Made by a program: the position numbers and the translations under genes. This document shows positions 1,878 through 15,500 of a stretch of DNA of 33,858 bases, piece after piece. The notes beneath the pieces were generated by a model. That model worked only from the letters and a program-made list of their open reading frames with translations, had not been told where the DNA came from and did not search any database. Within the stretch, counting starts at the first letter, position 1. Every line of letters begins with the position of its first letter. The stretch is from a virus, in IMG/VR virus record IMGVR_UViG_3300049893_000662, positions 1-33,858 of that record, one strand, 5' to 3'.

Positions 1878-3359
1878 TTACACCTTTCTCTTAAATAGTT
1901 GTGCCATATCGTCCTGACGATGGATTAACTTACCTGCTGGTTCCCATTCTTGGTCAAGACCAGTAACCTTCATAATATTATCAATTGAACCATACTGCTG
2001 TGTCCAATCACAGGTCAAGTTAATGAGTAATAGGTCTGTCTTGTCATAGAGTTGCTTACGAACCTGCTCTGCGGTTGCCCGAGTAGTCTCTAATAAACGA
2101 CCTGGCATTAAGAGTACTAAACTGTACATATCTTCTTTCCAAGTGTTTAATTCAAAAATACTTCCCATCGTAAAGACGCCCCAGTGAATTGTGGTTGCGG
2201 CAGACATACAACGTTGTCTATCCATTTCCACACCATGTGGTACTAAATCAAATCTGTCTCCAACCACACGACCTAATAAGACACCATTACCACACCCCAA
2301 GTCAAGAACATTACCACCAGGAATATATTTCATATCACCGATTGCATCAATAATAACTTGGTGGAAGTGATCCATAGCTTCCTTATTACTAAATCCATTT
2401 TCTTCCCACATCGAAGTATCTTCAAGAGACTTAGCAAATGAAATAGTTTTTGTAACTGGCTTGACTTTAATTTTCTTTTGATTGTATGGATAGGTAATAC
2501 CCGACATACCATCTACTGGATATTCGTGGGCATGTTTCTGAACTACGTACTTCCACGGAGTCATGTCCGTGCGAGAAGAAATTTTATTGATGGGAGTGCG
2601 AATTTCTGCAATTCCATGCAGTGCTGACCATTCTACAGGCCACGACAGTAATTCGTAAATCCAATCAATTTGTTCACTATATCCCAACTTACGACCAAGT
2701 TCTGCCATCTTCATACCAAGTTCTTCGGTAGCTTTGCAGTTAAATGAGCATGGAAGATGAGATACTAATCGTACACCCTGCCAACGCCACAAGATATTAC
2801 ATTCTGGTGGTGTATCTGCCTTGATGTGGATGGTTGTATGTGTTTCATCGTCATCATCCAACTGCATATCGTCCGATGCCATCGTCCACGTAGAATCCAC
2901 AAATCCTTGGTTGACCCAATACTTCATAAAGTGATTGGTACAACACGTAGGATATCCAAGCAAACGACCAGCTTCACGGTCACGAATATTTGGTTCTGCC
3001 TGCCAAATATTAAACCATTCATCAGCCATTGCTTCCGATTTAGTAAATACTACACGAACGTTATAATCACCACCAGTATGTGGTGTGCTAGTTGAAGAGT
3101 AGGTTTTTGCTTTACCTTCTTTCGCAATAGGAACTACGAGCACACCGTACTTTTTATATTCGTCGATAAGTCTTGTAAGTTCTGCGGGTGACACAATATC
3201 CAACGAGGATGGACGAATATCGTGCACAACTGACATACGTTCTATATGCCGCCAGACACCGTTTATTGAAGCAATAATCGGTTCATACTTAATTCTATTT
3301 TCCATACTTGTCCACTGCACCCGAGTCCAATCGGGTAAGACATGCTTTATTCTTCGCAT
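1878..3359 (-). CDS. DUF483-like domain fused to SAM-dependent methyltransferase
   Basis: A 493-residue two-part protein. The N-terminal half has GYPTCC at 135-140 and HLPCSFNC at 201-208, a paired-cysteine pattern resembling DUF483-type proteins and suggesting a metal site. The C-terminal part (about 325-493) is a class I Rossmann methyltransferase: motif I NVLDLGCGNG at 350-359 and an acidic motif II-like end GVEMD at 376-380. The family moves a methyl group from S-adenosylmethionine; the substrate cannot be read from sequence. The ATG follows a strong AGAAGGGG site, 20 bases after the small HADH-box gene, with the radical SAM gene beyond that. A SAM methyltransferase beside a radical SAM/SPASM enzyme and repeat proteins is a common arrangement in peptide modification loci, so I infer action on the same substrate. 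A DNA, RNA or small-molecule target is possible. The methyltransferase call is firm; the DUF483 assignment is moderate. Confidence 0.82.
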   Translation of the reverse strand: MRRIKHVLPDWTRVQWTSMENRIKYEPIIASINGVWRHIERMSVVHDIRPSSLDIVSPAELTRLIDEYKKYGVLVVPIAKEGKAKTYSSTSTPHTGGDYNVRVVFTKSEAMADEWFNIWQAEPNIRDREAGRLLGYPTCCTNHFMKYWVNQGFVDSTWTMASDDMQLDDDDETHTTIHIKADTPPECNILWRWQGVRLVSHLPCSFNCKATEELGMKMAELGRKLGYSEQIDWIYELLSWPVEWSALHGIAEIRTPINKISSRTDMTPWKYVVQKHAHEYPVDGMSGITYPYNQKKIKVKPVTKTISFAKSLEDTSMWEENGFSNKEAMDHFHQVIIDAIGDMKYIPGGNVLDLGCGNGVLLGRVVGDRFDLVPHGVEMDRQRCMSAATTIHWGVFTMGSIFELNTWKEDMYSLVLLMPGRLLETTRATAEQVRKQLYDKTDLLLINLTCDWTQQYGSIDNIMKVTGLDQEWEPAGKLIHRQDDMAQLFKRKV

Positions 3360-3378: not shown

Positions 3379-3747
3379 TTAAACCTTCAACTTACTCTTT
3401 TCTTCTGCGATAATCTTTTGTAAGAAGGACTTCCAGGAATTTCCAGTACTTTCTTCTACAGGTGCCGATGACGAAGTACCGTACTTTGCTTCATACGCCG
3501 CTGCGTAACGACCAGTCTCGTCGTAATGGTCGGCATGCCCATCCGTCATATCAAATTCTTCTTGACCACCAATAACTTGTGATGTAATACTTACGGGAAC
3601 TACTTCTGCAACGGTTTCGGTTGCCACACGAAATTCTGCTGGTACTTCCTTTAGTACTCCTGACTCAACCAGTTCTTTAACTACTGCGAACTTTTGACCA
3701 TATGCACCGGATGCATCTACGTGGTCTGCGTGTAATTGCGGAATCAT
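3379..3747 (-). CDS. Small protein with two HADH boxes, possible carrier or substrate of the radical SAM enzyme
   Basis: A 122-residue protein with no recognised family. It has two copies of a motif also present at the end of the adjacent radical SAM enzyme: HADHVDASGAY at residues 6-16 and HADHYDETGRYA at 71-82, the second followed by AYEAKYG. Between them lies a Val/Glu-rich segment (about 20-65). The C-terminus (103-122) is a basic amphipathic helix-like stretch. There are no cysteines, signal peptide or membrane segments. The start has a good AGAGGAT site; the gene lies 30 bases after the radical SAM gene and 19 bases before the methyltransferase gene. By position and motif sharing it could be a precursor, a recognition partner or an assembly factor. 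None is proven. An alternative is that the box is a phage docking tag unrelated to catalysis. Confidence 0.78.
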   Translation of the reverse strand: MIPQLHADHVDASGAYGQKFAVVKELVESGVLKEVPAEFRVATETVAEVVPVSITSQVIGGQEEFDMTDGHADHYDETGRYAAAYEAKYGTSSSAPVEESTGNSWKSFLQKIIAEEKSKLKV

Positions 3748-3777
3748 ACATATCCTCTTTTTGTAATAAGTAATTGT

Positions 3778-5088
3778 TTATGGTAAATATCCATATTTCT
3801 GTTCAAACTCAATCGCATATCTGCCTGTTTCATCTGTATGGTCGGCGTGTGGTTGGTTACCACTCGATTGATTACGTAGATATTGAGTAATGAAGTTTTC
3901 AATATCGAAGTTGCCTCTTAAGTATTCCTTAATATATGCTAATCTAATTTCAACTCCTCTACTATAACCATACATTAAGACATCTTCGTACTTCTTTAAA
4001 TCTGGACTGAGAGAAAGTGGTACCTCACCTTTTTGCACCATCAACTTTTCAAAGATACCAAATGCTACCTTCCAGTTCATGCAAGTATCGGTTCTATTTC
4101 TCCAATCCATATCTGCTCCTGTACCAGGGCAGTGTGATTTACACATAATGAAGAACCGACATCCTTGACAACCACCATATTCTTGCGGGGTATTATATAA
4201 CGCCATTTGACGTTCAAATCCGTCAATATCTGCTTTAATCCAATTAATACCTTCTTTATTACCACGACCACAGTTTGCCTTATTACCTTGGGAGTCAATA
4301 CCTTGTACAGCGTGTGTTGTATATGGGTCACACGATAAAAATGTACACGTTGCATCATTATCACGTGCCAGCAACATATCTTCTACGTCACGGAAAATGT
4401 CGAAGTTGAATGGACGCTTACCAGGAACGTTTAACTCACCAATTTCGAATTCCCACATATCTAGAAGAAATTCAATATTTTGTTCTGGGGTCAGAGCTAG
4501 TGTTTCACCAACTGAGCTATGGTCAATTTCTAATGGATGAAGTCGAGCACCAGGTACACCCCATGCCTGCAATTCTTTAATCCATGCCTTAAATCGTTCG
4601 CGATACTTTGGTAACCCGTTCTTTTTATGAATGGTAATAATCAGTCCAATAGAAATATTATTTTCTAGACACTTCTTGATAGCCTCGAATGATTTCTTCG
4701 TTGCTGCTCTAGTCTTTTCAAGCGACCCAGCCCAACGGGTATCATTCATTTCATCAGGTCCGTCAAGAGAAACACCGACATGAACGTTATATTTCTTGAA
4801 CATTTCGATATGACGATCTGTAATTAATACGCCATTTGTTTGGATACCGTTACTTCCGTAACGTTCGTATCCCCACTTAAAAATAGTTTCTAAGTCGTCA
4901 ATATCAGTTAATAATGGTTCACCACCAAATAGAGTAAAGTTACCACCCTCCTTTTCCAGTCCTTCTAACATTTTTTCAAGAGAATATGTTTTTTGACGGA
5001 AATTTCCTGCGTCACGCATAGGATGCTCGTAACAATACGGGCAACTTAAATTACACATTACTCCAACTGGTTCCAATTCAATCGTCAT
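3778..5088 (-). CDS. Radical SAM/SPASM peptide-modifying enzyme with HADH-box C-terminal tail
   Basis: A 436-residue radical SAM enzyme. The [4Fe-4S] motif is C12-x3-C16-x2-C19 in MCNLSCPYCYE, and the SAM-binding GGEP lies at 55-58. Eight further cysteines (248, 253, 273 in NCGRG, 307, 310, 316, 320 and 336) form a SPASM-type C-terminal domain that normally holds auxiliary Fe-S clusters. This combination is typical of anaerobic sulfatase maturases and RiPP maturases acting on peptides or proteins through the 5'-deoxyadenosyl radical. The last 23 residues (414-436) carry HADHTDETGRYA followed by FEQKYG, an appendage not needed for the fold and shared with the next gene. The ATG has a CGAGG site and lies about 23 bases downstream of the expected start of a sigma70-type promoter. 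Upstream lie the His-Thr-Asp/Asn repeat proteins, the leading candidate substrates. Enzyme class is near certain; the reaction is unknown. Confidence 0.95.
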   Translation of the reverse strand: MTIELEPVGVMCNLSCPYCYEHPMRDAGNFRQKTYSLEKMLEGLEKEGGNFTLFGGEPLLTDIDDLETIFKWGYERYGSNGIQTNGVLITDRHIEMFKKYNVHVGVSLDGPDEMNDTRWAGSLEKTRAATKKSFEAIKKCLENNISIGLIITIHKKNGLPKYRERFKAWIKELQAWGVPGARLHPLEIDHSSVGETLALTPEQNIEFLLDMWEFEIGELNVPGKRPFNFDIFRDVEDMLLARDNDATCTFLSCDPYTTHAVQGIDSQGNKANCGRGNKEGINWIKADIDGFERQMALYNTPQEYGGCQGCRFFIMCKSHCPGTGADMDWRNRTDTCMNWKVAFGIFEKLMVQKGEVPLSLSPDLKKYEDVLMYGYSRGVEIRLAYIKEYLRGNFDIENFITQYLRNQSSGNQPHADHTDETGRYAIEFEQKYGYLP

Positions 5089-5152: not shown

Positions 5153-5992
5153 TTATGGACCAACTAATACTGGTTGGTCACTATGTGGCGTGGTGTTATC
5201 TGTATGTGCTGCTGCGATATCGGTGTGCGATGCGTTTGTGGTGTTGTCTGTGTGCGCTGCGTTGATTGTTGTATTCGTGAACGGTGTGGTACTATCTGTA
5301 TGTGCGGCAGTGATTGTAGTATTTGTAAATGGTATAGTTGTATTACTAAACGCTGTGGTGTTGTCTGTGTGCGCAGCTGCGATGTTAGTGTGCGATGCGT
5401 TGGTAGTATTGTCGGTGTGTGCTGCTGCGATATCGGTATGCGATGCTGCGATGTTAGTGTGGGATGCGTTTGTGGTATTATCTGTGTGAGCAGCTGCGAT
5501 GTCTGTATGTGATGCGTTGGTAGTATTATCGGTATGTGCTGCTGCGATATCTGTGTGTGCCGCTCCAACATTACTGTGTGCGATGTTGGTATGTGATGCT
5601 GGTGTGGTTGAGTTTGAGAACGGTGTTGTACTATTTGAGAAGTTAGTTGTGTTGTCTGTATGTGCTGCCCCAATATTGGTGTGAGCGGCTGTAATATTCG
5701 TATGTGCGGCACCGATGTTTGTATGTGCAGCACCGATATTTGTATGCGCCGCACCAATATTACTATGTGCGATGTTTGTGTGTGACGTACCAATATTAAC
5801 GAACGCTATATTACTAAATGGTGTGGTACTATTAGAAAACCCAACATTACTAAATGGTGTAGTTGAATTTGAGAAGTTAGTTGTACTATTAGAAAATCCA
5901 ACATTACTAAATGGTGTGGTACTATTAGAAAATGCAAGATTATGATGAGCGATATTAGTATGTGACGTTGCAGGAGTATTGGTATGTGCCAT
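5153..5992 (-). CDS. [H/F]-[S/T]-[N/D] repeat protein, almost entirely repeat (279 aa)
   Basis: From residue 3 to the end, apart from a short tail QPVLVGP, the protein is 39 units of His or Phe, then Ser/Thr, then Asn/Asp, then 2, 4 or 6 linker residues. Examples are [12 protein letters not shown] and HTDNTTNAS. Of 38 unit spacings, 37 are odd (5, 7 or 9 residues); the single exception is 8, at the very start. Phe units occur mainly in the N-terminal third and His-Thr-Asp units in the C-terminal half. There are no cysteines, signal peptide or globular domain. Five-residue units such as TNIAH fit a pentapeptide-repeat-like A(N/D)LXX pattern, so a beta-solenoid or fibrous shaft is plausible. 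It lies 64 bases upstream of the radical SAM gene. I infer a fibre or surface component and candidate substrate. A weak GAGAT site precedes the ATG at 5992. Confidence 0.85.
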   Translation of the reverse strand: MAHTNTPATSHTNIAHHNLAFSNSTTPFSNVGFSNSTTNFSNSTTPFSNVGFSNSTTPFSNIAFVNIGTSHTNIAHSNIGAAHTNIGAAHTNIGAAHTNITAAHTNIGAAHTDNTTNFSNSTTPFSNSTTPASHTNIAHSNVGAAHTDIAAAHTDNTTNASHTDIAAAHTDNTTNASHTNIAASHTDIAAAHTDNTTNASHTNIAAAHTDNTTAFSNTTIPFTNTTITAAHTDSTTPFTNTTINAAHTDNTTNASHTDIAAAHTDNTTPHSDQPVLVGP

Positions 5993-6030
5993 GGGTTATC
6001 TCAAAAAATTAACGCTTAAATTTACACGTA

Positions 6031-6423
6031 CTATCTAGGTACTATAGTTAATATAGCGATTTTAACCACAGGATCTACCATAGGTTGTAATCGGTATATA
6101 TCTCCATCTCTTGTCCATTTACGTTCTTTTGTTTCATCATATTTTGATGCGTATGTGTTTGGTATAGCTGACGCAAATGTTTCTTTCGATATAGCATTTC
6201 CATCGTGATTAAAATGTCCAACACAAAATGTAAAATCATCCGAGTATTGATTATATGAAATCCACCATTTTGCTTGATATGGAAATCCAGAAAATCCTAC
6301 TTGTTGATTAACACCTTCGGGAGTGGTTAAGGTTTCAAACATATCAGGACGTTCACCAGAGGTGTACAATCCAAATAAATTTTGTTCTTGTAAAAAATTT
6401 TTTAATTCTGTTACAGAATTCAT
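6031..6423 (-). CDS. Hypothetical protein between two repeat genes (130 aa)
   Basis: A globular-looking protein rich in aromatic residues (WWISYNQ, FTFCVGHFNHDG) with no family I recognise. It has a single cysteine at the FCVGHF segment, no repeat units, and no membrane segment apart from a mildly hydrophobic C-terminus (VKIAILTIVP). A strong AGGAGAT site precedes the ATG. The gene is sandwiched between two [H/F]-[S/T]-[N/D] repeat genes, 26 bases after one and 38 bases before the other. It may be a cap, chaperone or partner for these proteins, but that rests on position alone. Confidence 0.8.
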   Translation of the reverse strand: MNSVTELKNFLQEQNLFGLYTSGERPDMFETLTTPEGVNQQVGFSGFPYQAKWWISYNQYSDDFTFCVGHFNHDGNAISKETFASAIPNTYASKYDETKERKWTRDGDIYRLQPMVDPVVKIAILTIVPR

Positions 6424-6449
6424 TTTATATCTCCTTAGTTAATAACCTA

Positions 6450-7661
6450 TTATTGACAGAAATCACCAGGATTGCAATATCCCGTTGGAGTTCCTGCACA
6501 AAAACATCCATACTGAGCACATCCGTTATCACACACATCACCAATACACGCACATGTTGTACTATCTCCATGTGGACTTGTACTGTTAGAGAATGCAATA
6601 TTACCATGTCCGCTATTTGTATGCGATGCACCTACATTACTATGTGCAATATTGGTATGTGCCGCACCAACATTCGTATGCGATGCTCCAACATTACTGT
6701 GTCCGATGTTAGTGTGTGACGCCCCTACGTTACTATGTGCAATATTTGTATGTGCTATAGTAGTGTTTGTAAATGCGATATTACTGAACGGAGTAGTGCT
6801 ATTGGAAAACGGAGTTGTGCTATTGGAAAACGGAGTTGTGCTATTGGAAAACGGAGTTGTGCTATTGGAAAACGGAGTTGTATTATCAGTATGCGCCGCT
6901 GCGATGTTAGTGTGTGCTGCTCCAATATTTGTATGTGCTGCGGTAATAGTGGTGTTTGTAAATGCGATATTACTAAATGGTGTGGTTGAATTCGAGAACG
7001 CTGTGGTATTATCTGTATGAGCGGCTGGAATTGTTGTATTGGTGAATGCCGTGGTATTATCGGTGTGTGCTGCAGTGATCGTAGTATTTGTAAATGGTAT
7101 AGTTGTATTACTGAAAGCCGTTGTGTTATCTGTATGAGCGGCTGGAATTGTTGTGTTACTAAAGGCTGTAGTATTGTCTGTGTGTGCTGCTGCTATATCT
7201 GTATGTGATGCTGCGATGTCTGTATGTGATGCGTTTGTGGTGCTATCGGTATGTGCTGCTGCAATATCTGTATGTGATGCGTTGGTAGTATTGTCTGTGT
7301 GTGCTGCGTTGATTGTGGTATTGGTAAATGGTGTGGTATTATCGGTGTGTGCTGCGGTTACGTCGGTGTGACCACGGCGAGCATTACCAACAGAGGATAT
7401 CCATTGCCAGAATGTAGTTTGTACCCACACCGACCCTGCCTTTGCTCCAGCCGCAGCTCCCAAATCAGTAGATGCAATTGTACGGTCAACACCAGTAGCC
7501 GAGATATAATGGAAATCGTTTCCATCTACCCAGATAGACCCAGCCTTAGCTCCCGCAGGACTTGTACCTGCGGTGCCAGTATAATAATATTCATTTCCTG
7601 TTGCGTCAATAAATCTAAAGGTTTCACCATCAACCCATATACTACCAGGTGCCTTAGCCAT
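6450..7661 (-). CDS. Repeat fibre protein with GSIWVDG head and cysteine-rich tip (403 aa)
   Basis: Three parts are visible. Residues 1-97 hold three diverged copies of a short module (PGSIWVDGETFRFIDATG, AGSIWVDGNDFHYISATG and AGSVWVQTTFWQWISSVG), which looks like a beta-rich attachment or oligomerisation head. Residues 98-369 are 39 [H/F]-[S/T]-[N/D] units whose 38 spacings are all 5, 7 or 9; they include five FSN units at 21-base DNA period. Residues 370-403 are a compact tail with eight cysteines in 34 residues (CACIGDVC, NGCAQYGCFC), suggesting disulfides or a metal cluster. Head, shaft and tip together look like a fibre. The GGAG site is 11 bases before the ATG. The repeat domain is a candidate substrate of the radical SAM enzyme encoded downstream. 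A non-fibre secreted or internal virion role cannot be excluded. Confidence 0.87.
   Translation of the reverse strand: MAKAPGSIWVDGETFRFIDATGNEYYYTGTAGTSPAGAKAGSIWVDGNDFHYISATGVDRTIASTDLGAAAGAKAGSVWVQTTFWQWISSVGNARRGHTDVTAAHTDNTTPFTNTTINAAHTDNTTNASHTDIAAAHTDSTTNASHTDIAASHTDIAAAHTDNTTAFSNTTIPAAHTDNTTAFSNTTIPFTNTTITAAHTDNTTAFTNTTIPAAHTDNTTAFSNSTTPFSNIAFTNTTITAAHTNIGAAHTNIAAAHTDNTTPFSNSTTPFSNSTTPFSNSTTPFSNSTTPFSNIAFTNTTIAHTNIAHSNVGASHTNIGHSNVGASHTNVGAAHTNIAHSNVGASHTNSGHGNIAFSNSTSPHGDSTTCACIGDVCDNGCAQYGCFCAGTPTGYCNPGDFCQ
6801..6884 (-). repeat. Four-copy 21-bp tandem repeat inside the repeat fibre gene
   Basis: Four consecutive 21-base units, beginning on the plus strand with attggaaaacggag, each encode FSNSTTP. 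The first three are identical and the fourth differs only at its last bases. Elsewhere the same peptide unit uses different codons, so this block is likely a recent slippage or unequal recombination expansion that keeps the reading frame. Confidence 0.9.
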
Positions 7662-7693
7662 ATCTTAAAATCTCCACATAACATCAACCTCTA

Positions 7694-7725
7694 TATAAGT
7701 AGTATTTTTCATATCTTTACTTATA
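7694..7725 (-). promoter_or_regulatory. Inverted repeat TATAAGTA/TACTTATA upstream of the GSIWVDG repeat gene
   Basis: An 8-base inverted repeat (7694-7701 and 7718-7725, 16-base spacer) lies in the 73-base gap between the collagen-like gene and the repeat gene. The minus strand therefore carries TATAAGTA about 57 bases before the start codon, one base from the T4 late-promoter octamer TATAAATA, and also its complement nearer the start. It may be a late promoter or an AT-rich regulatory palindrome; chance is possible. Confidence 0.35.
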
Positions 7726-7734
7726 AAAACGATG

Positions 7735-8598
7735 TTATACACACGTAAATGTTCCTAAACAACCGACTGGTCTTGCTGCGCAAACCACAGAATATAATGT
7801 ACTATTTGGGTTTACATAAAAGTTTGATCCTGACGATGGGGTACCTTGTACACAATTTACATATCCTGCTGGACATTCTGCGTCAACACCACGACTTCCT
7901 TGTGGACCTGTTGGCCCTTGAACTCCAGCGATACCTTGTACACCACCAGTTCCCGTTGATGCAGCCCCCGCAGATATACCTGTTACACCGACAATACCTG
8001 TTGCACCCTGTGGACCACTTGGACCCGTAGAACCAGTAGTTGGTAATCCAACTGGACCTGTTGGACCTGTAATGCCAACTAAATTAGTTAGTCCTATTGG
8101 TCCTGTAACCCCAATCACACCTGTTGCACCCGTAATACCTATTACACCAGTAGCACCAGTAGCACCAGTTGGTCCTGTTGCACCAGTAGAACCTGACGTA
8201 AATGATGCAATGCCTGTTGGACCTGTGATACCTGTGATACCAATAACTCCTGTGATACCAGTTGGTCCTGTTGGTCCTGTGCTTCCCGTTACCCCTGTTG
8301 GTCCTGTAATACCCGTAATACCTATTGACCCCGTTGGTCCTGTTGGTCCTGTTGGTCCCGAACTTGTTAATCCTGTTGGACCTGTTGCACCAGTTGGCCC
8401 CGTAGAACCAGAACCTGCCGACCCCGATGGTCCTGTTGGACCTGTTGGACCCTTATCGCCTTGTGGTCCTGTTGGTCCAGGACCATATGATGCGGTCAAT
8501 ACATTTACATTCACTGCATACGTTGCGGTAAATGCTAAACTACTTGTGAGTGAGACACTTGCAGTTGTTGGTGTACCTAGTGGGAAAAATTGCGACAT
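7735..8598 (-). CDS. Collagen-like phage fibre protein with cysteine-containing tip (287 aa)
   Basis: The N-terminal head of about 40 residues ([15 protein letters not shown], later LTASYGPG) matches the heads of the two other collagen-like genes nearby. Roughly residues 41-235 are Gly-X-Y triplets dominated by GPT, GAT and GIT, with a few interruptions. The last 48 residues contain five cysteines ([22 protein letters not shown]), probably a folded or disulfide-linked tip. Collagen-like triple helices are known shafts in tailed-phage fibres, and Thr-rich triplets are typical of bacterial and phage versions without hydroxyproline. The gene starts 6 bases after the stop of the chimaeric repeat gene and has no clear ribosome site, so translation is probably coupled. 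The receptor is unknown. Confidence 0.88.
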
Positions 8599-8604
8599 AT
8601 CGTA

Positions 8605-10218
8605 TTATAGGTATGCGTTACTGTGGGCTGCTGCGATATTTGAATGCGGTATTGTAGTATTTGTAAAGTTAGTGGTATTATCTGTGTGAGTTGCTGGTGT
8701 GGTACTGTTTGAGAATGCTATATTACTAAATGGTGTGGTACTATTGGAGAATGGTGTTGTGGAGTTTGAAAATCCAGTATTTGCAAATCCTATATCAGTA
8801 TGTGCTGCTCCAACATTACTATGTGCAATATTTGTATGTGCTGCTCCAATATTACTATGTGCAATATTACTATGCGCAATATTACTAAATGGTATCGTCG
8901 TATTTGAGAAGTTTGTAGTACTGTTTGCAAAAGGTATAGTGCTATTACTAAATGGTGTTGTACTATTTGCAAAATTATCATATGGAGCACACGGAGTACC
9001 AGATACAGCGGCACAACTTGGAGCCCCTTCATAGAATATACATCCTGGACCCGCATCTCCGTCCAAACAGTAATAACCAGTCAATGCAATATTTGTATGT
9101 GCTGCGGATATATCTGTATGTGCTGGTGATGTGTCGCTGTGCGATGCACCAATATCTGTGTGTGATCCTGCGATATTTGAAAACGCAATATTACTAAATC
9201 CAATATTACTAAATGGTGTTGTTGAATTTGAGAATCCAATATTACTAAATGGTGTAGTGCTATTGGAAAATGCTGTATTGCTGTGAGCAATATTAGTATG
9301 TCCCGCAGTAATATCTGTATGTCCCGATGTTACATTACTATGTGCAATATTTGTATGTGCTGCGTTTGTGGTATTGTCAGTATGCGCTGCACTGATATCT
9401 GTATGACTTGCTACTACGTCACTATGCGGTACTGTGATATCCGCGTGTGTTTGATTACAAGACCCTGTAATAAAGAATGCAGCTCGACCAGCTGCTCCTT
9501 GTGGTCCTGTTGGACCAATTGACCCACTTGGTCCTGTAGCTCCTGTTGCACCTGCTGCACCGAATGTATTTGGGCCAGAGGATCCTGACGGTCCTATTGC
9601 ACCCGTTGCACCCGTTGGGCCTACTGGGCCTGTTGGTCCTGCTGATCCTGATGCTCCTGTTGGACCTGTTGCACCTGTCGGACCTACCCCTGTTGGACCT
9701 GTACTTCCTTGTACACCCGTTGGCCCCGATGATCCTGTAGGTCCAGTTGGTCCCACAACACCAGCTACACCTGCTGTGGTACTAGCACTACCAGTTGGTC
9801 CTGTTGGTCCTGTAATACCCGTTGCACCAGTTGCTCCTTGTATACCCGATGGACCTGTAATACCAATAACACCTGTAGATCCTGTGATACCCGTTGGACC
9901 CGTTGGACCTGTTGCTCCACTTGGACCACTTGGACCTGTTGGTCCTGTAGATCCTGACGTTTGTGGGCCTGATGAACCCGATACACCTTGTACACCTGTT
10001 GATCCCGATATTCCCGATGGTCCGCTTGGTCCAGTCGCACCAGTAGCACCTTGTGGACCAGATGGGCCTGTTGGTCCTGATGGTCCACCTAGTGCATATG
10101 ATGCTGTTAAGTACGCAGAACCACTATTCGTTGCAACCGATGCCGTAAATGTCGTATTGGCATTAATTGCGAACGAACTAGTCGTTGGTACACCAAATGG
10201 GAAAAACTTAAACGTCAT
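8605..10218 (-). CDS. Chimaeric collagen-like and [H/F]-[S/T]-[N/D] repeat fibre protein (537 aa)
   Basis: The head, residues 1-45 ([25 protein letters not shown]), is shared with the neighbouring collagen-like proteins. A Gly-X-Y region spans about 45-245. A short link containing FFITGSCNQ leads to repeat block 1, 19 units at 258-379, beginning with HADITVP, the variant closest to the HADH box of the radical SAM enzyme. Residues 380-415 form a small insert with four cysteines (C384, C393, C402, C410). Repeat block 2, 19 units at 416-537, runs to the C-terminus. All 36 internal spacings of the two blocks are odd. The protein thus joins the fibre architecture of one family to the repeats of the other, the best evidence that the repeat proteins are displayed on fibres. 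The start has a GAGAGAAAG site 16 bases after the upstream collagen-like gene. Confidence 0.9.
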
Positions 10219-10233
10219 AACACTTTCTCTCTA

Positions 10234-10965
10234 TTATGGTGTGTTTGCACCAGTTGGACCTGTTGCACCCTGTGCTCCACTAGGACCTGTTGGACCTGTT
10301 GCACCCGTTGCACCTGTTGGTCCTGTAAATGCTGTTCCTTGCGCACCTGTTGGTCCTGTTGGTCCTGTAACGCCTATGGTACCGCCAGGTCCCGATGACC
10401 CAAATGGACCACTTGGGCCAGTTGCACCAGTTGGTCCTTGAATACCAGATACAGCAATACCTGTTGCACCAGTTGGGCCTGTTGCTCCTGTAACACCTAC
10501 CGGTCCTGCAAAACCTTGTACACCAGAGGGGCCACTTGGTCCTTGTGGTCCTGTTGGGCCTGTTGCACCTGTGATTCCAACAATGCCTGTTGCTCCTGTT
10601 GCCCCCGTTGGCCCTGTACTTCCCGAGACTCCTCGTGGTCCTGTTGGTCCTGTTGATGCTGCTCCAGTTGCCCCCGTTGCTCCCGTTGGTCCTGTAATAC
10701 CTGTTGGACCTGTTGGACCTGTTGCGGAACGTGGTCCTGTTGGACCTGTAATACCGATTGGTCCTGTTGGACCTATTCCTGTTGGTCCTGTAATCCCCGT
10801 GACGCCTTGTACTACTGATGTTGGTCCCGTTGGACCTGTTGGTCCACCACCCGTAAGTGAATACGATGCAGTCATACCAGACAGCACGAACGATGCTGTC
10901 GTTGCTGCCGATCCTGTAAATGCGAATGAAGAACTAAACGTTCTAAACGGAAAATATCTTAACAT
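10234..10965 (-). CDS. Collagen-like phage fibre protein (243 aa)
   Basis: The head [14 protein letters not shown] with later SYSLTGGG is related to the heads of the other two collagen-like genes, and is followed from about residue 40 to the end by Gly-X-Y triplets (GPT, GAT, GIT). It ends abruptly at GANTP, with no cysteine-rich or globular tip, unlike the 287-residue paralogue. This could mean a shortened protein, or a shaft whose tip is supplied by another chain. The next gene starts 16 bases downstream with the same type of head. A virion fibre role is inferred from the collagen-like shaft and the structural-gene setting. Its ribosome site is weak (TTGGATTACT). Confidence 0.87.
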
Positions 10966-11013
10966 AGTAATCCAATATAAATATTCATCACCAACTTATC
11001 TACTTTGTTTTTA

Positions 11014-11673
11014 TTACTTTACAGGAAGCCATTTTCCAACAGGACATGCCGATGCCGCCAATTGTGTTTTTGCTTTCATAAAGCATCCGCATTTTTCACA
11101 ACGAAAATTGTCCTTTAAAAATTCACAACCTTGACAAATTGAAAATCTGTTAAATGCGGTATCTGCGTCAACCATTATTGGTAGTCCTTGTGCAGCATGC
11201 TTACCAGTCATCCACATTTCTTTTGCTAAATTACGTGCCTGTTGAAATACAGAAGGGAACTTTGATGTATCTTCCGACTTCATCATTTGTTCAGTACGCT
11301 CATAACTGTCTTTATTTTCTGCACCGAATGCTGCTTCTGCATATGTCATACCCTCAACCATCTTATACGCCGTTACGATATCAGTTGGTGCTGTCATCGC
11401 ATTATGACCTTGACGATAAAAAAGAGGTGTATAATTCTTTGGTGCAAAATAGTACACTGCTTGTGTCATCGGTCGTGGGAACATAATTGGTTCTTCACGA
11501 TAACAAATTGTATGTAAGTGAACTGGATTTTGTTGTCCCTTAACTTGGTTTTCTAAATCTGTCAAAAACTTACTTTTGAAATTTTCACATCCTTCTGCGA
11601 CAATCACTGCTATAACGACATGCGTTGCATTGTCAATTAATTCTTGTAAATCACGAAACATTTGTACGCTCAT
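11014..11673 (-). CDS. Phage protein with C-terminal zinc-ribbon-like cysteine cluster (219 aa)
   Basis: Residues 1-100 look like a mixed alpha/beta domain (THVVIAVIVAEGCENFKSKF). A central helical region contains AEAAFGAENKDSYERTEQMM. The C-terminus holds CQGCEFL, CEKCGCFMKAK and a final CPVGKW, a four-to-six-cysteine arrangement typical of a zinc ribbon seen in phage structural and tail-region proteins. The N-terminal domain might bind a fibre or act as a glycosyltransferase-like fold, but I see no diagnostic motif. The start has a good AGAGGAT site that overlaps the stop of the upstream gene. Position at the end of the large fibre array suggests an assembly or accessory role; function unknown. 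Confidence 0.82.
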   Translation of the reverse strand: MSVQMFRDLQELIDNATHVVIAVIVAEGCENFKSKFLTDLENQVKGQQNPVHLHTICYREEPIMFPRPMTQAVYYFAPKNYTPLFYRQGHNAMTAPTDIVTAYKMVEGMTYAEAAFGAENKDSYERTEQMMKSEDTSKFPSVFQQARNLAKEMWMTGKHAAQGLPIMVDADTAFNRFSICQGCEFLKDNFRCEKCGCFMKAKTQLAASACPVGKWLPVK

Positions 11674-12551: not shown

Positions 12552-15500
12552 TTAAGTTGCGTAGTAATTAGTACCAACTGGAACCACAAATCTATATTCT
12601 AATCCACTACCAGACACGATTCCAGAGAATTGTGAACCAGAGAATGTTACTGCTTGACCAGATAATGACGATACCGTTTGCGCAGAACTACTGTTTATTC
12701 CCGCGTTATAGTTTACAGATGACCATACTATTTGTGTTGAACTAGTGACCCATCCTGGATATTGTGCGGAACTGGATACTGTTCCACCAGGTAATAATGG
12801 TTGAACCTGTGCACTACTTGACACAACACCACTTAATTTGTTGGTGATACTATTATAATCTACCTGACCAGAACTAGATACTGTTCCTGTTGGTAAAAAT
12901 GCAGTTACTTGTGTAGAACTACTTACTACATTTGCTGTGAGTACATTTGTTGCTAATGATGCTGTACCAAATAATGATGATGTTACTCCCGCAAATGTTA
13001 CCTGGTCAACTGTTTGTACACCAAGGTCCACATCGGTTAATGCTACACCATTTAATGTTAATCTTGCCGTACCTTGACTTGGTGACGTAAATGCAGAACT
13101 ACTATATACACCACCAAGCTTATTGGTTATGGAGTTATAGTCAATTTGACTTGATGCAGTAACCCATCCTGGATATTGTGCTGACGATGAAACCGTACCA
13201 CCAGGTAATAGTGGTTGAACTTGTGCAGAACTACTAACGATACCCGTATTGTAATTTACGGATGACCATATAATTTGACCAGAACTTGATACGGTACCTG
13301 CTGGAAGTAGTGTTGCAATTTGTGCTGCACCCGATACCACACCATTATTTGCTAGTATTGAACCTGTGAAGGTACCTGTGTGGGTTCCTACAAATGATCC
13401 GCTAAACGAGCCCGTGTTGATTTGTGCAGAACTGGTGACCCAGCCAGGATATTGTGCCGAACTTGATACTACTCCACCAGGAAGTAATACTGGAAGTTGC
13501 GTGGAACTAGATATTACACCAGGAAGTGCTGCAATTGCACGTGCATTGGTGAAGTATAAATTAATACCTTCCGTTAAGTTCGTGGTTGTTGCTGTTCCTA
13601 AGAAACTTGCGGAATGTACATTTTCTACATTTAACTTGGTTTTTACTCGTGCATCTGTATAGTATAGGTTTGTAGTACCTTCGGCTAATCCATCCGTGTT
13701 GACCGCAAGTGAACCGGACACACCCAATGCCAAACTTGCGGTTGCTGCGTAGCTTGCACTGTTTACTAAGACTGGAGCTATTTGGGTAGAACTACTGACG
13801 GTTCCTGCTGGTAGTCTATTTACGACTTGTTGTGAACTACTCAAAACAGATAATGAATCAATATAACTTAATACTAAAGAATTTGCGTAATACTTGTTTG
13901 TTGATCCTTGTGGTAAATTATCTGTTGTTGCTGTTCCAAGGAAACTACCAGACATTACTACATCACTATTCATTTTACTCTTTACACGTGCATCCGTGTA
14001 GTAAAGATTAGTGACACCTTCTGGTAAGTTGTTGGTAGTCGCTGTACTCATGAAACTACCAGAGTGTACAGTACCAAGTTGTGCTGCTACTGCTGTTGCA
14101 AAATTAGATGTTGCTCCGGCGTTAATTTGACCAGAACTTGATACAGTTCCTGCTGGAAGTAGTGGTGCAACTTGTCCACTACTTGAAACTATTCCAGACG
14201 GAATACTGGTTAGACTATTATATGGGAACGTACCAGTTAATGCACCACTTACAGATGCCGTTACGGATGTTGCGGTAATTGTTGTTGCATTTACTATTGT
14301 TGGTGCGATAGTTTGTCCAGCTACACCCGCAACTACTTGTGCACTACTTGATACTGTACCCGCTGGGAGTAGTGGTTGGACTTGTGTAGACGATGAAACT
14401 ATTCCTGCAGAAATTCCAGATATACTGCTGTAAGTTATTTGACCAGAGGATGATACTGTTCCTGCTGGTAATAATGTTGCAACTTGTGTTGATGAGGAAA
14501 CAATAGCACTTGGAATTCCCGTCAAACTTGCGTATGGGAATGTACCTGTTAATGCACCGGACACAGCCGATGCGGTTATTGATCCTGTTACCTGTAAGCT
14601 TCCTACGATTCCTACTTGTGTACCATTATCACTAATTTGTGAGTTTACGATGTGGTCACCACTAGTTCCAGCCTTTGGTAATAAATTCTGTGTTAAAAAT
14701 TGTTCATTACCCAATGCACCAGTATTTTCTGGACCAGTAATCACTATACTACTAGTGTTACTTGTTCCTGCGTGGACAAACAACCATACGTTATTGACAC
14801 TATCCCAGAGAAGTGAACCAGATTGGTTTGTTACTGATCCGGAGTCATACACATTAAGACCACCATAACGAAGAACTGCGGTAGTGTTTAATGTAAGTTT
14901 ATTAGATCCTACATCAAGTTGTGATGAGGTAACATACAGAATAGATGATGTACCTTGTACTGTCAAGTTGCCTGTAATAGTTGTAGAACCAGAAATTGTT
15001 TGGTTGCCCACAAAGATATTAGAACCTGTTGTTGCTATGGCTCCTATACCCGTGGTATTTTGTACAGTAACTTGACCAGAACTTGAAACGGTTCCTGCTG
15101 GAAGTAATGGTTGTACTTGCGTTGAACTCGAAACAACACCACTTAATTTATTGGTGATGGAATTATAATCTATTTGACTTGACGCAGTGACCCATCCTGG
15201 ATATTGTGCTGAACTACTGACAATACCATTTGGGGTTCCTGTTAAACTTGCATATGGGAACGTACCAGTATGTGTACCAGCAAAAGACCCTGTAAATGAT
15301 CCTGTAAATGATCCTGATGCTGGTGATGGGGTTGATGAACCCGACGTAGTTATTACTAATGTTCCATTCGTATCTTTTAATGCCAAAGTTCCAAGATATA
15401 ACGTAGAACCAGACAAGTATAAATCTTTAAATCGTGCGGTAGGGCTACCTAAATCGTATGTATTTGTTGCAGATGGTATAATATGTCCAGATGCAGTAAT

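Follow-up and report, generated by a model that had tools for sequence, protein, structure and literature searches.

Gene Organization of the Locus

The stretch of DNA analyzed here, called the window in its entirety, is a 33,858-base virus contig (record IMGVR_UViG_3300049893_000662). Read along the minus strand, three repeat-array genes (8605–10218, 6450–7661, and 5153–5992) are followed by genes for a radical SAM/SPASM enzyme (3778–5088), a 122-residue accessory protein (3379–3747), and a DUF483 domain fused to a class I methyltransferase (1878–3359). The protein encoded at 8605–10218 is a predicted tail fiber, based on PHROG tail-fiber matches, in which a collagen repeat precedes an array of 21 HxN/D and 18 F/Y/WxN/D units; the first unit of this chimera is HADITVP, as given in the initial annotation. 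The second array protein (6450–7661) combines three N-terminal GS(I/V)WV modules with 24 HxN/D and 19 F/Y/WxN/D units, and the third, encoded immediately upstream of the enzyme (5153–5992), has 26 HxN/D and 13 F/Y/WxN/D units.

Two features at the ends of array proteins recur in relatives. The 6450–7661 protein terminates in a Cys-rich stretch, CACIGDVCDNGCAQYGCFCAGTPTGYCNPGDFCQ, and similar stretches are present in related array proteins (L004 5102–5842, L008 7988–9148). Modules of the type GS(I/V/A)W(V/I)(D/E)G lie ahead of the array in the same window protein, in L002 (8961–9992), and in L020, L022, L025, L086, L127, L130, L133, and L137; the N-terminal module of the window protein is also common to the Thermus phage array protein. 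Found across very different phage lineages, these modules are possibly a leader-like or virion-anchoring domain.

The accessory protein has no match in Pfam or NCBIfam and a single PHROG match (E 0.067), and it ends in a conserved segment, WKSFLxxIIAEEKSKLK. The DUF483 assignment of its neighbor is just above threshold (PF04467, 25.4 bits, cut-off 25). The AlphaFold2 (AF2) model of the fusion protein has a pLDDT of 91, and the Foldseek matches listed for it are methyltransferases, with no clue to the DUF483 domain among them.

The Radical SAM/SPASM Enzyme

The enzyme (436 residues) matches the Pfam Radical_SAM family at 1.1e-16 (61.9 bits, cut-off 29.5) and has the CxxxCxxC cluster motif, whose cysteines C12, C16, and C19 are invariant in an alignment of 62 sequences. 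The SPASM pattern C-x(9-15)-G-x4-C ... C-x2-C-x5-C-x3-C ... C is complete, and its seven cysteines and one glycine (C253, G268, C273, C307, C310, C316, C320, and C336) are invariant in the same alignment. A core (residues ~1–378) is followed by a variable linker (379–413) and then by the C-terminal box described below with a short helix. In the AF2 model (pLDDT 86) the tail is disordered and is not placed in the active site; among solved folds, anSME, a dehydrogenase, and ChlB come nearest. NCBIfam matches include the cyclophane-forming families YhhB, AmcB, GrrM/OscB, FxsB, and XyeB, with the enzyme scoring far below every cyclophane-maturase cut-off (GrrM/OscB, 52.5 of 310 bits; YhhB, 67.9 of 445; AmcB, 59.8 of 425).

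A Conserved Box Shared by Enzyme and Accessory Protein

A box, HADHxDx(T/S)GxY, occurs three times in the window. One copy is on the enzyme tail (HADHTDETGRY, residues 414–424, 3817–3849) and two are in the accessory protein (HADHVDASGAY, residues 6–16, 3700–3732; HADHYDETGRY, residues 71–81, 3505–3537), all on the minus strand. These are exactly the places where the initial annotation had put them, and the sequences it quoted were located as HADHTDETGRYA at enzyme residues 414–425, HADHVDASGAY at accessory-protein residues 6–16, and HADHYDETGRYA at residues 71–82. Of the similar trailing motif that it described, (A/F)E(A/Q)KYG, a (F/Y)E(Q/A)KYG form follows the tail box and box 2 and is absent after box 1, which runs on into GQKFAVVKEL, and the likeness it saw between HTDETG and the HTDNTT of the repeat proteins comes down to an H-x-D unit and one Thr in common. 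A tblastn search with the enzyme against its own record recovered box 2 at E 3.5e-5, the three occurrences of H.DH.D among the window's proteins are all boxes, and HADH.D was absent from 500 shuffles. The recurrence of the box is not chance.

Residues H1, A2, D3, H4, D6, G9, and Y11 are invariant in 24 copies from eight distinct phages. In these eight phages, pN/pS is 0.095 for the tail box, 0.121 for box 1, and 0.090 for box 2, vs. 0.47 in the linker, 0.41 after the tail box, and 0.56 and 0.73 in the accessory-protein flanks; comparable constraint is found only in the accessory protein's C-terminal segment (0.126) and the enzyme core (0.153). Box residues are thus under strong purifying selection, and most of their flanks are not.

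The box is also confined. In each of seven related contigs (44–148 kb), H[AG]DHxD matches exactly three times, only in boxes, vs. zero for the reversed pattern. The initial annotation had noted that wide occurrence of the box in phages without a radical SAM or repeat partner would speak against its reading; among 2.9 million viral contigs, HADHxDxTGxY was found in 14, of which 13 belong to the window clade and one (L188) was rejected as a chance match antisense to a gene. Relatives of the accessory protein are confined to the same 13 contigs, and 11 phage records at greater distance yielded no match in profile searches run without a positive control. Elsewhere in the proteins of the loci, H.DH.D is rare, with four matches outside the boxes in ~438,000 residues, and one of these matches is apparently the severed tail of the L134 enzyme. 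In that locus (8001–9197) the enzyme frame is seemingly interrupted, and the second part still has an HxD tail at its end, HGDKHGDHTDYG.

The core of the box, HADHxD, consists of two H-x-D units in a period-3 tandem (HxDHxD), to which an invariant GxY outside the units is added. This tandem never occurs in the window's own arrays, and the box is not a copy of a fiber unit.

Composition of the Repeat Arrays

In arrays of the window clade, the residue at +2 from His (n = 743) is D in 53% and N in 47%, while Phe is followed at +2 by N in 88%; the unit counts are 394 HxD, 348 HxN, 200 FxN, and 5 FxD. Across all four sets (window clade, Thermus phages, other phages, and bacteria), 90–100% of array His have D or N at +2, and F, Y, and W also occupy position 1. 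HxD predominates in the latter three sets, accompanied by YxD units and some of the types FxD and WxD. Repeated units are encoded by differing codons, which indicates that the protein motif is under selection. Unit spacings in the window clade (arrays 5153–10218) are 94% odd, chiefly 5, 7, and 9, as expected for units on one face of beta strands; this was not seen in other lineages.

Array Genes at Related Loci

Relatives of the enzyme (~36–55% identity) were found both in phages (the Thermus phages phiLo, phiMa, and Cumys and further phage contigs) and in bacteria of many phyla; E-values from these related-locus searches hold for the candidate stretches only. Arrays were called by a six-frame scan (at least 6 H-x-[ND] per 60 residues) within flanks of at most 8–12 kb. 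Outside one alphaproteobacterial clade, an array adjoins the enzyme in 73 of 90 loci (32/35 in phages, 41/55 in bacteria), counts that include near-copies among the phages, so that loci are not independent. None of 61 distant radical SAM loci used as controls has an array, and 5 of the 90 score as one when the DNA is reversed. The three array-negative phage loci have short upstream sequence, and some array-negative loci hold shorter arrays (L042, L057, L095). The alphaproteobacterial clade (Bradyrhizobium, Sphingomonas, Paraburkholderia) has no detectable array at 14 loci (L077–L080, L082–L085, L087–L089, L091–L093). Several bacterial array proteins start with export-signal-like, specifically Tat-like, segments; judged from these sequences, the arrays are therefore probably exported.

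At related loci the partner genes encode aKG-HExxH peptide beta-hydroxylases scoring over the cut-off, as well as DUF483 proteins, which are often accompanied by a methyltransferase. Enzymes fused to a DUF483-type region occur in L030, L031, L035, L043, and L061 (in L061 additionally to a methyltransferase), and these fusions support a functional link between enzyme and DUF483. The phage contig L025 has two diverged enzyme copies (10001–11152, 13682–14857) and two DUF483-like genes beside a mostly-HxN array. Some bacterial loci also encode large proteins of unknown family whose HxD cluster is solely C-terminal (L031 3741–7955, L038 5188–7869, and the like); these adjoin the enzyme and an HExxH hydroxylase.

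HxD-Rich Tails across the Enzyme Family

The initial annotation had proposed that the tail resembles the enzyme's putative substrate. H-x-D is indeed the array unit both here and in distant relatives, and many relatives have HxD-rich tails of different sequence at their C-terminus. Of 22 non-fused enzymes with at least 38 residues past the core, all but one (21) have two HxD or more; of the 87 His in those tails, 72 begin an HxD; further HxD tails are present in L127, L132, L135, and L137. Flanking sequences vary by lineage, but the period-3 tandem recurs as HGDHTD, HGDHWD, HADHTD, and HKDHND. By sequence, then, much of the enzyme family shares a substrate-like tail, which is not peculiar to the window.

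On a quick tree the tail label changes seven times (gain or loss), with two changes forced by well supported branches; this tree scored L132 as tail-less, though it carries an HxD tail. A DUF483 protein was detected at the loci of 21 of 25 tailed vs. 22 of 72 tail-less enzymes, and HExxH genes at 5 of 25 vs. 35 of 72, respectively. In the sister phage clade L017–L024, arrays are present while both tail and box protein are missing, so the reaction does not require the box. Array type was rejected as the cause of tail presence, since HxD arrays are present in these tail-less sister phages too, and the HExxH partner offers no clear explanation.

Comparison with Known Systems

One close parallel is with the triceptide maturases, which form three-residue cyclophanes (XyeB, GrrM/OscB, FxsB, YhhB, YxdB, HaaB); they share the radical SAM and SPASM domains and act on aromatic-x-(Asn/Asp/other) substrates, His included. 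Aromatic-x-(N/D) units beside the enzyme gene, as expected of triceptide systems, are present here at the frequency given above for loci and controls. In contrast to those systems, the enzyme here falls far below the family cut-offs, has a DUF483 partner, and can itself carry units, and its candidate substrates, in phages and bacteria alike, are not short precursors but structural proteins carrying dozens of units.

Thermus phages Cumys, phiMa, and phiLo have a module whose enzyme is homologous (46–49% identity) and has an HxD-rich tail and a DUF483 partner; in Cumys and phiMa the array gene is adjacent, and the HxD array protein of Cumys is Cumys_13 (XKB90002.1). It differs from the window in its tail sequences, HGDYTDHGDAPHGDHWDG and HGDHNDHGDHTD, and in having no box protein. 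As published, this module comprises three genes, one for the radical SAM enzyme, one for a DUF483 protein, and one whose function is unknown, and a role in DNA modification was suggested for it (PMC11437467); the part of that paper dealing with the module describes neither repeats nor a tail. That the gene beside the Thermus radical SAM gene encodes an HxD array, and that the enzyme tails are HxD-rich, is shown here as a new finding.

The His-Xaa-Ser system (HxsB/HxsC) likewise pairs a radical SAM enzyme with a protein of repeated His-x-residue units, but the units here are HxD/HxN (at the proportions given for the window clade) and not HxS, and the enzyme scores 31.5 bits against the 370-bit cut-off of the HxsB model TIGR03978. 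The sulfatase maturase anSME is the closest solved fold by both sequence and structure; the score against its model, TIGR03942, is 74.8 bits (cut-off 349), and no sulfatase was noticed near the genes. The long tail fiber of phage T4 also has His-rich repeats, in the form of iron-binding HxH motifs, and differs from the arrays here, which have HxD/N and in which Phe replaces His. No enzyme is known to modify the T4 motifs.

Proposed Function and Alternatives

Considering the observed motif, its conservation, its confinement, and its co-occurrence with arrays, we infer that the gene pair belongs to a peptide-modifying radical SAM/SPASM module acting on aromatic-x-Asp/Asn arrays, with a box of substrate type, and give this reading about even chances of being right. 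The box is taken to be of substrate type because it is a tandem of two array-type units, HAD and HxD, carried on the enzyme's flexible tail and twice more in the accessory protein. Substrates would be the long H-x-D, H-x-N, F-x-N, and Y-x-D arrays in phage fiber proteins and bacterial proteins. The likeliest reaction would join the aromatic side chain at position i through a C–C bond to the beta carbon at i+2, as in triceptides, whose enzymes join Trp, Phe, Tyr, or His in this manner to partners that include Asn and Asp, with Phe/Trp-Asn/Asp, Tyr-Asp, and His types among the known cross-links (PMC11002830). The arrays obey this i/i+2 rule, even where Phe or Tyr replaces His; because of this fit, and because cyclophane maturases are among the best family matches, cross-linking of fiber units is favored with moderate confidence. 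The box would probably enter the site for fiber units, in the simplest form as an auto-substrate or pseudo-substrate, and the clade-specific GxY may be an added recognition feature; on the enzyme the box might be modified in cis, inhibit, or serve as a tether. Against this reading, the cyclophane scores are far enough below the cut-offs that the reaction may differ, the tail is disordered in the AF2 model, the sister clade has neither tail nor box, and the alphaproteobacterial clade has no detectable array.

Some other radical chemistry (epimerization, beta-hydroxylation, or formation of other bonds) could instead act on these H/F-x-D/N units, and the box would remain substrate-like. The nearest solved folds, anSME and ChlB, and the peptide beta-hydroxylases that adjoin the enzyme at related loci are consistent with this, but the strict i, i+2 spacing of aromatic to Asp/Asn is what a cross-link requires, and neither epimerization nor hydroxylation needs an aromatic residue at position 1; we consider such chemistry unlikely. 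Equally doubtful, in our judgment, is a docking tag, in which the HxDHxD box would be bound by a shared partner (e.g., DUF483) that gathers enzyme, accessory protein, and fibers, and would itself stay unmodified. The invariance of residues outside the HxD units (G9, Y11, and T/S8) in all 24 copies, the difference between box and fiber units, and the more frequent DUF483 proteins at loci of tailed enzymes would all suit docking; nevertheless, DUF483 and arrays also accompany some tail-less relatives (L020, L022), and no binding groove or partner was identified.

There are two further alternatives. Tails made almost purely of H-x-D offer typical iron ligands, and with HExxH iron hydroxylases at several loci, the tail might bind iron and supply or protect Fe-S clusters or load the hydroxylase. 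However, arrays put Phe, Tyr, or Trp in place of His at position 1, so metal binding is not the common rule, and HExxH genes accompany tail-less more than tailed enzymes; we regard a metal-binding tail as quite improbable. Least probable by far, and very unlikely indeed, is a DNA modification module of the type suggested from cyanobacterial gene context in the portion of PMC11437467 concerned with the Thermus phage relatives, with the HxD motifs serving another role. The gene adjoining the radical SAM gene in those phages is an HxD array (L002 8961–9992, L003 8964–9992), the cyanobacterial locus L033 has an array as well, and partners at related loci are peptide hydroxylases. These readings overlap with the preferred one, as the alternative chemistry keeps the box substrate-like, and our confidences in them need not sum to one.

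Implications

A fuller version of the peptide-modifying module is more speculative, and we hold it to be somewhat unlikely: the phage enzyme would staple its fibers covalently with dozens of aromatic-x-Asp/Asn cross-links and control itself through its own copy of the target, cross-linked in cis, with the same machinery acting on HxD arrays across many bacterial phyla. In the literature searched, whose coverage left out most subscription journals, no report of radical SAM-modified tail fibers was found, and the Thermus phage paper (PMC11437467) was the only one found to place DUF483 with radical SAM. If the peptide-modifying reading is true, few known products of radical SAM peptide chemistry would be as large as phage fibers, and that chemistry would have a use outside natural-product peptides. 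The arrays would provide a candidate substrate for a widespread partnership of enzyme and DUF483 that previously had none, and the tail and box, with two adjacent H-x-D units, would provide a small, testable handle on how the enzyme recognizes its target.
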